A stretch of 64,000 bases of DNA from Astropecten irregularis (lineage: Eukaryota > Echinodermata > Asteroidea > Paxillosida > Astropectinidae), in contig OZ020258.1 in assembly GCA_963971285.1 (NCBI GenBank), positions 10,870,614 through 10,934,613 on the forward strand, written 5' to 3'. The position numbers and the translations under genes were made by a program. The notes below the pieces were generated by a model. The model searched no databases and was not told the origin of the DNA. It was given only the letters and a program-made list of their open reading frames with translations. Shown one piece after another: positions 18,574 to 24,500 of the stretch. How positions within the stretch are numbered: position 1 is the stretch's first letter; the number at the start of each line of letters is the position of its first letter.

Positions 18574-21500
18574 CTGAATATAAAAATTTTGGAAACAAAA
18601 AATTATAATAAACTGAAATGAATTAATTATACTGATTGCAAGGAAACGGCATTTGCTCCTTCATACGGTATGTTGATGTATAAAATCACAGTAATAAACT
18701 GCTCATCAACCAAAATAATGACCTGAAATCTATCTAAACTGCTCAGAGTTAGGGGCCAAAATGGTATAAAAATTGATTCAAACCTGTGGGTGATTTCATG
18801 GCTTCGTGATAGCTCCCAGATTATAAAGTTAACTAGCGCTTTGGGACACAGACAACTAAAACAGGGCTGGATAGCTCAGATGGTAGAGTGCTGGCATGGC
18901 AGTTTATGGGTTATGAGGCTTCTGACTGGCACCCTGAGCAAAGATAGTTGACTATAGGGAGGCCCCATCATAGGGCTGGATAGCTCAGATGGTAGAGCAC
19001 CGGTATGGCAGTTAATGGGTTATGAGGCTTCTGACTGGCACCGTGAGCAAAGATAGTTGACTATAGGGAGGCCCCATCCTAGGGCTGGATAGCTCAGATG
19101 GTAGAGTGCTGGCATGGCAGTTTATGGGTTATGAGGCTTCTGACTGGCACCCTTAGCAAAGATAGTTGACTATAGGGAGGCCCCATCATAGGGCTGGATA
19201 GCTCAGATGGTAGAGTGCAGGCATGGCAGTTAATGGGTTATATGGCTTCTGACTGGCACTCTGAGCAAAGATAGTTGACTATAGGGAGGCCCCATCATAG
19301 GGCTGGATAGCTCAGATGGTAGAGTGCTGGCATGGCAGTTGATGGGTTATATGGCTTCTGACTGGCACTCTGAGCAAAGATAGTTGACTATAGGGAGGCC
19401 CCATCATAGGGCTGGATAGCTCAGATGGTAGAGTGCTGGTATGGCAGTTGATGGGTTATATGGCTTCTGACTGGCTCACTGAACAAAAATAGTTGATATT
19501 ATAGGGAGCCCCATCATAGGGCTGGATAGCTCAGATGGTAGAGTGCTGGTATGGCAGTTAATGGGTTATGAGGCTTCTGACTGGCACTCTGAGCAAAGAT
19601 AGTTGACTATAGGGAAGCCCCATCATAGGGCTGGATAGCTCAGATGGTAGAGTGCTGGCATGTCAGTTAATGGGTTATACAGTTTCTGACTGGCACCCTG
19701 AGCAAAGATAGTTGACTATAGGGAGGCCCCATCATAGGGCTGGATAACTCAGATGGTAGAGTGCTGGTATGGCAGTTTATGGGTTATGAGGCTTCTGACT
19801 GGCACCCTGAGCAAAGATAGTTGACTATAGGGAGGCCCCATCATAGGGCTGGATAGCTCAGATGGTAGAGCACCGGTATGGCAGTTAATGGGTTATGAGG
19901 CTTCTGACTGGCACCGTGAGCAAAGATAGTTGACTATAGGGAGGCCCCATCCTAGGGCTGGATAGCTCAGATGGTAGAGTGCTGGCATGGCAGTTTATGG
20001 GTTATGAGGCTTCTGACTGGCACCCTTAGCAAAGATAGTTGACTATAGGGAGGCCCCATCATAGGGCTGGATAGCTCAGATGGTAGAGTGCAGGCATGGC
20101 AGTTAATGGGTTATATGGCTTCTGACTGGCACTCTGAGCAAAGATAGTTGACTATAGGGAGGCCCCATCATAGGGCTGGATAGCTCAGATGGTAGAGTGC
20201 AGGCATGGCAGTTAATGGGTTATATGGCTTCTGACTGGCACTCTGAGCAAAGATAGTTGACTATAGGGAGGCCCCATCATAGGGCTGGATAGCTCAGATG
20301 GTAGAGTGCTGGCATGGCAGTTGATGGGTTATATGGCTTCTGACTGGCACTCTGAGCAAAGATAGTTGACTATAGGGAGGCCCCATCATAGGGCTGGATA
20401 GCTCAGATGGTAGAGTGCTGGTATGGCAGTTGATGGGTTATATGGCTTCTGACTGGCACCCTGAGCAAAGATAGTTGACTATAGGGAGGCCCCATCATAG
20501 GGCTGGATAGCTCAGATGGTAGAGTGCTGGCATGGCAGTTAATGGGTTATACGGTTTCTTACTGGCACCCTGAGCAAAGATAGTTGACTATAGGGAGGCC
20601 CCATCATAGGGCTGGATAGCTCAGATGGTAGAGTGCTGGCATGGCAGTTAATGGGTTATACTGTTTCTTACTGGCACCCTGAGCAAAGATAGTTGACTAT
20701 AGGGAGGCCCCATCATAGGGCTGGATATCTCAGATGGTAGAGTGCTGGTATGGCAGTTAATGGGTTATACATTTTCTGACTGGCACAGTGAGCAAATATA
20801 GTTGACTATAGGGAAGCCCCATCATAGGGCTGGATAGCTCAGATGGTAGAGTGCTGGTATGGCAGTTAATGGGTTATATGGCTTCTGACTGGCAGGCACT
20901 CTGAGCAAAGATAGTTGACTATAGGGAGGCCTCCATCATAGGGCTGGATAGCTCAGATGGTAGAGTGCTGGTATGGCAGTTGATGGGTTATATGGCTTCT
21001 GACTGGCACTGTGAGCAAAGATTGTTGACTATAGGGAGGCCCCATCATAGGGCGGAATAGCACAAATGCTAGAGAGCTGATGTGGCAGTTAATGGGTTAT
21101 ATGACTTGTGACTGGCTCACTGAACAAAAATAGTTGATATTATAGGGAGCCCCATCATAGGGCTGGATAGCTCAGATGGTAGAGTGCTGGTATGGCAGTT
21201 AATGGGTTATATGGCTTCTGACTGGCACTGTGAGCAAAGATAGTTGACTATAGGGAGGCCCCATCATAGGGCAAGATAGCTCAGATGGTAGAGTGCTGGT
21301 ATGACAGTCTTTAATGGGTTATATGGCTTCTGACTGGCACTCTGAGCAAAGATAGTTGACTATAGGGAAGCCCCATCATAGGGCTGGATAGCTCAGATGG
21401 TAGAGTGCTGGCATGTCAGTTAATGGGTTATACAGTTTCTGACTGGCACCCTGAGCAAAGATAGTTGACTATAGGGAGGCCCCATCATAGGGCTGGATAA

Positions 21501-24500
21501 CTCAGATGGTAGAGTGCTGGTATGGCAGTTTATGGGTTATGAGGCTTCTGACTGGCACCCTAAGCAAAGATAGTTGACTATAGGGAGGCCCTATCATAGG
21601 GCTGGATAGCTCAGATGGTAGAGTGCTGGCATGGCAGTTAATGGGTAATACGGTTTCTGACTGGCACCCTGAGCAAAGATAGTTGACTATAGGGAGGCCC
21701 CATCATAGGGCTGGATAGCTCAGATGGTAGAGTGCTGGCATGGCAGTTTATGGGTTATGAGGCTTCTGTCTGGCACCCTTAGCAAAGATAGTTGACTATA
21801 GGGAGGCCCCATCATAGGGCTGGATAGCTCAGATGGTAGAGTGCTGGTATGGCAGTTTATGGGTTATACGGTTTCTGACTGGCACCCTGAGCAAAGATAT
21901 TTGACTATAGGGAGGCCCCATCATAGGGCTGGATAGCTCAGATGGTAGAGTGCTGGTATGGCAGTTTATGGGTTATACGGTTTCTGACTGGCACCCTGAG
22001 CAAAGATATTTGACTATAGGGAGGCCACATCATAGGGCTGGATAGCTCAGATGGTAGAGCACCGGTATGGCAGTTAATGGGTTATGAGGCTTCTGACTGG
22101 CACCCTGAGCAAAGATAGTTGACTATAGGGGGGCCCCATCATAGGGCTGGATAGCTCAGATGGTAGAGTGCTGGTATGGCAGTTGATAGTTGACTATAGG
22201 GAGGCCCCATCATAGGGCTGGATAGCTCAGATGGTAGAGTGCTGGCATGGCAGTTAATGGGTTATACGGTTTCTTACTGGCACCCTGAGCAAAGATAGTT
22301 GACTATAGGGAGGCCCCATCATAGGGCTGGATAGCTCAGATGGTAGAGTGCTGGCATGGCAGTTAATGGGTTATACGGTTTCTTACTGGCACCCTGAGCA
22401 AAGATAGTTGACTATAGGGAGGCCCCATCATAGGGCTGGATAGCTCAGATGGTAGAGTGCTGGTATGGCAGTTAATGGGTTATACAGTTTCTGACTGGCA
22501 CTCTGAGCAAAAATAGTTGACTATAGGGAGGCCCTATCATAGGGCTGGATAGCTCAGATGGTAGAGTGCTGGCATGGCAGTTAATGGGTTATACTGTTTC
22601 TTACTGGCACCCTGAGCAAAGATAGTTGACTATAGGGAGGCCCCATCATAGGGCTGGATAGCTCAGATGGTAGAGTGCTGGTATGGCAGTTAATGGGTTA
22701 TACAGTTTCTGACTGGCACAGTGAGCAAAGATAGTTGACTATAGGGAAGCCCCATCATAGGGCTGGATAGCTCAGATGGTAGAGTGCTGGTATGGCAGTT
22801 AATGGGTTATATGGCTTCTGACTGGCAGGCACTCTGAGCAAAGATAGTTGACTATAGGGAGGCTCCATCATAGGGCTGGATAGCTCAGATGGTAGAGTGC
22901 TGGTATGGCAGTTGATGGGTTATATGGCTTCTGACTGGCACTGTGAGCAAAGATAGTTGACTATAGGGAGGCCCCATCATAGGGCGGAATAGCACAAATG
23001 CTAGAGAGCTGATGTGGCAGTTAATGGGTTATATGACTTGTGACTGGCTCACTGAACAAAAATAGTTGATATTATAGGGAGCCCCATCATAGGGCTGGAT
23101 AGCTCAGATGGTAGAGTGCTGGTATGGCAGTTAATGGGTTATATGGCTTCTGACTGGCACTCTGAGCAAAGACAGTTGACTTTAGGGAGGCCCCATCATA
23201 GGGCAAGATAGCTCAGATGGTAGAGTGCTGGTATGACAGTCTTTAATGGGTTATATGGCTTCTGACTGGCACTCTGAGCAAAGATAGTTGACTATAGGGA
23301 AGCCCCATCATAGGGCTGGATAGCTCAGATGGTAGAGTGCTGGCATGGCAGTTAATGGGTTATACAGTTTCTGACTGGCACCCTGAGCAAAGATAGTTGA
23401 CTATAGGGAGGCCCCGTCATAGGGCTGGATAACTCAGATGGTAGAGTGCTGGTATGGCAGTTTATGGGTTATGAGGCTTCTGACTGGCACCCTAAGCAAA
23501 GATAGTTGACTATAGGGAGGCCCTATCATAGGGCTGGATAGCTCAGATGGTAGAGTGCTGGCATGGCAGTTAATGGGTAATACGGTTTCTGACTGGCACC
23601 CTGAGCAAAGATAGTTGACTATAGGGAGGCCCCATCATAGGGCTGGATAGCTCAGATGGTAGAGTGCTGGCATGGCAGTTTATGGGTTATGAGGCTTCTG
23701 TCTGGCACCCTTAGCAAAGATAGTTGACTATAGGGAGGCCCCATCATAGGGCTGGATAGCTCAGATGGTAGAGTGCTGGTATGGCAGTTTATGGGTTATA
23801 CGGTTTCTGACTGGCACCCTGAGCAAAGATATTTGACTATAGGGAGGCCCCATCATAGGGCTGGATAGCTCAGATGGTAGAGCACCGGTATGGCAGTTAA
23901 TGGGTTATGAGGCTTCTGACTGGCACCCTGAGCAAAGATAGTTGACTATAGGGAGGCCCATCATATGGCTGGATAGCTCAGATGGTAGAGCACTGGTATG
24001 GCAGTTTATGGGTTATACGGTTTCTGACTGGCACCCTGAGTAAAGATAGTTGACTATAGGGAGGCCCCATCATAGGGCTGGATAGCTCAGATGGTAGAGC
24101 ACTGGTATGGCAGTTAATAGGTCATATGGCTTCTGACTGGCACCCTGAGTAAAGATAGATGACTACAAGGAGGCCCCATCATAGGGCTGAATAGTTCTGA
24201 TGGTAGAGTGTAGTTTATGACCCATTTCGAAACGGAGGCTCGGGCTCCGGCTCCAGCTCCATATCATGAATCCATTCTAGAATAAAGGGTATCAAATAGC
24301 TTTTCAGCATATGGATGACGGAGATGAAGCCTGAGCCTGAGCCTCCATTTCGAAAAGGACTTATGGGTCACATGGCCTCTGACTGGTACCCTGAGTAAAT
24401 ATATTTGACTACATTAAGACCCCGTCATAAGGCAGGAAATCTCATTGGGTAGAGTACCGATACAGTTTTCCAGAGATTGGAGGTTCAAATCCAACTTCAG

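Follow-up and report, generated by a model that had tools for sequence, protein, structure and literature searches.

A 109-bp satellite in the last MIB1 intron of Astropecten irregularis and its probable derivation from a tRNA-Thr-like short interspersed element

The last intron of the MIB1 gene of Astropecten irregularis is largely occupied by a tandem array of 109-bp units, each carrying a leader and the first part of a tRNA-like sequence. We analyzed a window of 64,000 nt, the whole stretch of DNA under study (GCA_963971285.1, OZ020258.1:10,870,614-10,934,613, forward strand), together with matching loci elsewhere in the host genome. The results make it very probable that the array belongs to a satellite family with many dispersed loci, derived from a tRNA-Thr-like short interspersed element (SINE) that is common in the host, and that it grew later at MIB1. 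We observed the SINE itself, the slice of it that is found in the satellite, a unit common to 22 aligned arrays, a split between SINE copies and satellite units on a tree, and block copies within the MIB1 array.

The array in the last MIB1 intron

The features of the intron, in window positions, are:
18436..18573, minus strand: coding part of the MIB1 RING3 exon (Pfam RING finger; PDB 8v0d)
18574..24728, minus strand: 6155-bp phase-0 MIB1 intron that separates the RING3 exon from the linker exon (from splice sites and reading frames)
18785..18862, plus strand: 5′ edge of the array, a SINE-type leader (alignment score, tree)
18863..24210, plus strand: array of the 109-bp satellite (Tandem Repeats Finder, profile)
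18896..19400, plus strand: block with a copy at 19769-20273, 503/505 bases identical (99.6%)
20709..22133, plus strand: block of about 13 units with a copy at 22641-24065, 1398/1423 aligned bases identical (98.2%)
22134..22204, plus strand: shortened unit, deleted to 71 bp
24225..24359, no strand assigned: foldback insert splitting the terminal unit (inverted ends read; boundaries approximate)
24366..24518, plus strand: terminal complete unit with leader, whole tRNA-like part and short tail (SINE model positions 74-235, 71.0 bits)
24431..24503, plus strand: tRNA-like sequence with A and B box (Rfam RF00005; B box at 24482)

The RING3 exon aligns over all of its 46 amino acids with the entry “RING3 of MIB1” in PDB 8v0d (E 3.9e-26), and the array lies on the strand opposite to the gene. 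It makes up 87% of the intron, or 93% together with its edges, which bears out the initial annotation, made from the sequence alone, where it had been described as most of the last MIB1 intron before RING3. Tandem Repeats Finder reports it in two main rows, 30.4 copies at 92% and 18.5 copies at 91%, and with a profile the count comes to 50 units of about 109 bp over 18793-24210, with 49 of the 50 at least 95 nt long; this count takes in the diverged first unit and leaves out the terminal complete unit beyond 24360. No longer array was seen among the arrays of the satellite that we examined.

The region 18786-24359 contains 53 A-box-like sites (up to one mismatch) and no B-box-like site (up to two mismatches), such that the tandem monomers with A boxes and without B box, first described from the letters alone, are real. 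A single perfect B box, GGTTCAAATCC, is found at 24482, past the foldback insert, where the last array unit resumes and runs as a complete tRNA-like unit to about 24518. This terminal unit had been overlooked, and the earlier statement that the monomers have no B box is right for them and misses the end of the array. The tRNA-like sequence at 24431-24503 scores 20.6 bits against Rfam RF00005 (E 1.4), below the gathering score of 29. An Rfam scan of 18700-26000, with E up to 5, offered four matches, namely a tRNA, two microRNA families on foldbacks and a tmRNA at 8 bits, and on this basis we rejected the leader as another known RNA.

At its other end, the array opens with 78 bases that align to the SINE consensus with a score of 25.5 (the highest of 500 shuffles reaching 15.0) and to the satellite unit with a score of 11.5 (shuffles up to 14.0), and that take a position between the SINEs and the other units on the tree described below. 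Between these edges, the MIB1 array grew later through block copying, as seen in the two pairs of near-identical blocks listed above. Its units show an identity of 0.935 to one another and of 0.886 to those of other arrays, values that lie above the average of arrays; the same holds for a three-unit array at another locus (L034b; 0.957 within, 0.906 between).

The parent repeat and the dispersed family

A longer repeat in the host genome includes a tRNA-Thr-like module that is whole and has A and B boxes. Of 12 loci scanned with Rfam, 9 yielded tRNA matches above the gathering score, 14 in all with a maximum of 55.4 bits, and 13 of the 14 fall inside copies of this repeat; ARAGORN called a tRNA-Thr(GGT) in 4 of 13 loci, and the tRNA part has matching acceptor, D and T arms. 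The consensus of 24 copies extends to as many as 344 columns. Because its tRNA part begins at column 179, and not at the 5′ end, the longer repeat is not a textbook tRNA SINE, and we use the term in a loose sense. An early idea that the element starts at the leader motif was dropped once further copies extended more 5′. In 4 of 23 SINE copies, flanking repeats reached or passed the 95th percentile of the null, the best being L046_8252 with 11 exact bases adjoining the tail (loci outside the window carry our own labels). A systematic sample of 14 pieces of 2 kb, a small one, held two SINE copies and no array.

Two stand-alone copies lie in the window itself and had been recognized from the start as relatives of the array, one with a B box and one with an A box, an observation that our analysis upholds:
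25596..25816, plus strand: SINE copy standing alone; B box and tail present, D arm deleted (SINE model positions 3-255)
35782..35943, plus strand: SINE copy standing alone; A box present, truncated after the anticodon arm, 3′ part missing (SINE model positions 19-182)

Compared with this repeat, the satellite unit is a slice. The units, one after another, align to about positions 74-176 of a SINE model of 258 positions, and each of them combines about 81 nt of leader, upstream of the tRNA, with the first 28-35 nt of the tRNA, ending in the anticodon arm; beyond a leader part of 81 nt and a tRNA part of 28 nt, about 7 further bases at the unit junction fit either side. Given that the SINE consensus continues about 100 columns further 5′, the 109-bp unit is an internal (middle) segment of the element and not its 5′ half. 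The suggestion that the 5′ half or head of a SINE had been amplified is thus retained as to derivation, since a dispersed SINE exists and the unit is a piece of it, and is corrected as to which piece.

Copies of the SINE also occur in other arrangements. At L037:9160-10000, full-length copies stand in tandem with a period of about 322, three of them with identical tRNA-Thr(GGT) calls, in a row that continues up to the limit of the piece examined. At L025:147-401, the tRNA 3′ half and the tail are repeated three times in tandem, which gives a second tandem form in another frame. Head-to-head inverted pairs are present at L034:9578-9863, L034:7123-7307, L042:9470-9823, L044:4124-4589 and L047:7900-8156 and are perhaps part of the full element. 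The copy at L043:350 follows directly on CAG and opens with GTGAGT, a series of letters as in a splice donor; several copies have GTGAGT at this place, and this may be chance.

We searched the host genome (475.7 Mb, 168 contigs) with the terminal unit as query and scored the best candidates only, so that all counts are lower bounds. The search returned at least 35 matches, of which 24 are tandem arrays of the unit (MIB1 included) and 10 are copies or fragments of the longer repeat, while one (C11:9392926) was not inspected. The arrays are distributed over at least 11 contigs. Both the SINE and further arrays were thus found where the initial annotation had advised looking for them, with no outcome of a missing SINE, and the local picture drawn at MIB1 proved too small for a satellite that is dispersed. 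A single consensus covers 222 units from 22 arrays of 3 to 50 units each, partial units counted, with a mean identity to it of 87-97% per array. Over 18 arrays, mean identity is 0.892 within and 0.880 between arrays. Because identity within arrays is close to that between them, and because blocks were copied at MIB1, the arrays look as if they had been seeded from one source and then left to drift, with later growth at MIB1.

The tree was built on 90 rows (65 units, 23 SINE copies and 2 rows for the MIB1 edges, one of which repeats a unit) and 110 columns. All 23 SINE copies form one side of a branch with support 95/92, and none falls among the satellite units on this unrooted tree; a nesting of SINE copies inside the satellite, which had been named as an outcome that would reverse the derivation, was therefore not seen in this sample. 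The MIB1 units are intermixed with units of other arrays.

Surroundings, spread and origin of the arrays

Several arrays lie in or near recognizable genes. Four loci are copies of one kinase gene on contig C17, with an array in the same intron of each, of 7 (L031), 8 (L033), 29 (L032) and 29 units (L041); the array at L032 lies between two exons on the same strand, one with a stretch of 26 protein letters and the other with WSFGILLWEIVTYGE. At L038, a WAP exon and an antistasin exon lie on opposite sides of the array, on the same strand; the array at L051 starts at most about 40 nt from a CIMR exon, and a CTP synthase exon lies near the one at L035. By its reading frames the array at L036 is likely intronic, and its two frames are without Pfam match. 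Since Pfam matches were obtained in 5 of 30 open frames, we claim no preference for introns. The 400-bp flanks of the 24 arrays, compared at E 0.001, have nothing in common apart from the four kinase gene copies, a match of 35 bp that links two loci, and a repeat present in both flanks of L043.

We propose that, in a single SINE copy or subfamily, the roughly 109 bp reaching from leader to anticodon arm were duplicated in tandem, and that the resulting multi-unit form would still have ended in a whole tRNA part and a tail. This form, or pieces of it, may then have reached many sites, several introns among them, as short arrays that subsequently drifted, and the array at MIB1 would later have been lengthened as unequal exchange or slippage copied blocks, each of about 4 to 13 units. 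The direction of this scheme, with the whole tRNA first and the partial one later, we infer from the tRNA being whole in the SINE and partial in the unit; we likewise propose a single origin.

Several results weigh against this proposal. At the 5′ edge of the MIB1 array, plain identity is about equal to the SINE (55/72) and to the unit (52/69). The tree is unrooted and covers 110 columns, 12 of its 85 inner branches are starred, and its bootstrap had not settled. The word common to both breakpoints of the slice does not exceed what chance would give (P 0.18; its score is matched by 8.4% of other window pairs), and a breakpoint repeat beyond chance was accordingly rejected. Finally, target-site repeats were seen at 1 of 20 arrays, where the repeat is array sequence itself, and were rejected as a feature of the arrays; this test covered 20 of the 24, leaving out L031, L032, L051 and L052.

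How the arrays spread is where the proposal admits a variant, namely that they were retrotransposed as multi-unit SINEs consisting of several promoter-half units, one whole tRNA and a tail, copied by the machinery of long interspersed elements. We consider this possible, though rather doubtful. It would account for the complete tRNA-like units at array ends, which occur in 4 of 24 arrays (MIB1, L042, L051 and a degraded one at L052; L045 is doubtful) and always at the 3′ end, as well as for first units that never reach upstream of model position 57. The last units of L032 and L041, seemingly extended, had no T arm on reading and were not counted. Although array ends fall in many unit phases, 11 of 22 arrays begin in phases 14-33, and this too may favor the variant, as does an identity within arrays hardly above that between them. 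Against it, repeats flanking the arrays show no excess (mean 6.4 against 6.44 in the null, 20 arrays), most arrays are without a tail, and about 180 columns of the element precede the tRNA promoter. An extension of this idea, for which we see a still smaller chance, is that a SINE lineage in which the leader and tRNA 5′ part became tandemized travels in multi-unit form and supplies introns with preformed arrays, the family, tandem also in the two other frames of L037 (full length) and L025 (tRNA 3′ half), being a repeated source of satellites.

The remaining explanations fare worse. The array might be a local product at MIB1, expanded within a single SINE insertion there, and its bracketing by a SINE-like 5′ edge and a complete 3′ unit, together with the local copying of blocks, would suit such a history; the same derived unit is nevertheless present at 23 other loci and MIB1 units intermix with theirs on the tree, so that an origin at MIB1 alone was rejected and is very unlikely. 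The reverse order, with the SINE put together from a preexisting satellite, is compatible with the tree alone, which has no root, and yet is hardly credible given the state of the tRNA in the two, as a part cannot readily restore the rest. A DNA element such as a Helentron or HINE could also carry arrays, as in oyster, and such carriers typically come with short arrays of a single unit at dispersed sites (PMC7492417, in the part available). HINE arrays are, however, described in the same text with common flanks of 50-100 bp, while the flanks of the 24 arrays are without common modules save for the exceptions given above; a common carrier was rejected on these grounds, and we regard it as most improbable. 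Lastly, the 53 A-box-like sites and the one A and B box pair at the array end could speak for a function in MIB1 through RNA polymerase III activity or RNA structure. Because the units have no B box, polymerase III activity, first suggested as antisense to the gene, would be unexpected in the array body. When one unit was folded, neither strand did better than its shuffles (z 0.66 and 0.67), and RNA structure was rejected on this ground; the same unit also sits in other genes. A function of this kind thus has very little in its favor, and at MIB1 the likeliest function of the array is none beyond being tolerated in an intron. The preferred account remains a dispersed, SINE-derived family with later growth at MIB1.

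Other repeats in the window and relation to known satellites

The window contains further repeats. A foldback element at 31976-34905, in a MIB1 intron, has inverted ends that start with TATGGGCGGCC, and its arms consist of tandem repeats. Two arrays of one 21-bp unit, CAATGACCAGGGGCACCAAGG, lie at 36701-38219 and 46644-47247, and four arrays of a GC-rich 12-bp unit, CTCCAGGCGGGG, at 7250-7976, 8569-9163, 11581-11936 and 12533-12912. A 36-bp satellite (176 copies, 92% match) occupies 1-6340 and continues past the left window edge.

Beyond the host, pattern searches of viral contigs gave one match for the leader (L001, with nothing more alike around it) and none for the unit, and those of genome contigs gave none for the leader. 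We found no report naming this repeat in the literature by a search on words, which could hardly reveal one. Satellites made from pieces of a SINE have already been described, with much the same anatomy, in squamate reptiles (PMC10702118), and the family reported here is a new example and not a new phenomenon. According to the available part of that report, sSat1-3 have units of about 67-290 nt cut from the 5′, middle or 3′ part of a SINE. As in the 109-bp satellite, the units stand head to tail in tandem and are shorter than the parent tRNA SINE, are more alike in long arrays, and occur as alternating variants. A longer terminal unit reaching the SINE end, common in the squamate satellites, is seen here at MIB1 and a few other loci, the 4 of 24 named above. 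The two systems differ in that long squamate arrays are mostly subtelomeric, with loci in the thousands, whereas several of ours lie inside genes, and in that our parent SINE is another one, with its tRNA far from the 5′ end.

Tandem repeats related to tRNAs in amphibians (Xenopus OAX/satellite 1, Cynops PolIII/TAN, Rana/polIII and Hydromantes Hy/polIII) likewise include a tRNA-like part; in the same source, as far as it was available, their parent SINE is unconfirmed or missing, whereas here the parent is in hand and the 109-bp unit is without B box (PMC10702118). Minisatellites from Alu and B1 are also tandem expansions of a SINE piece, for which the accessible text proposes duplication between short direct repeats as the first step (PMC6947457, PMC9659126). 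Those minisatellites are local, while here one unit is common to many loci and the short-repeat step is not beyond chance. TCAST-like arrays of Tribolium are, like ours, short, built of one unit and dispersed over many chromosomes, with 29 of 68 lying in introns, and they too lack local homogenization; in the part of the source at hand, they come from a major pericentromeric satellite, are not shown to be a SINE slice and reach tetramers only (PMC3411249).

In Astropecten irregularis, the parent repeat and its satellite are present together in one genome, with two dozen arrays of which some lie in identifiable genes. A locus-by-locus comparison of the birth, spread and later growth of arrays is thereby possible, and the copies of the kinase gene, with 7-8 units in two and 29 in the two others, already provide one.

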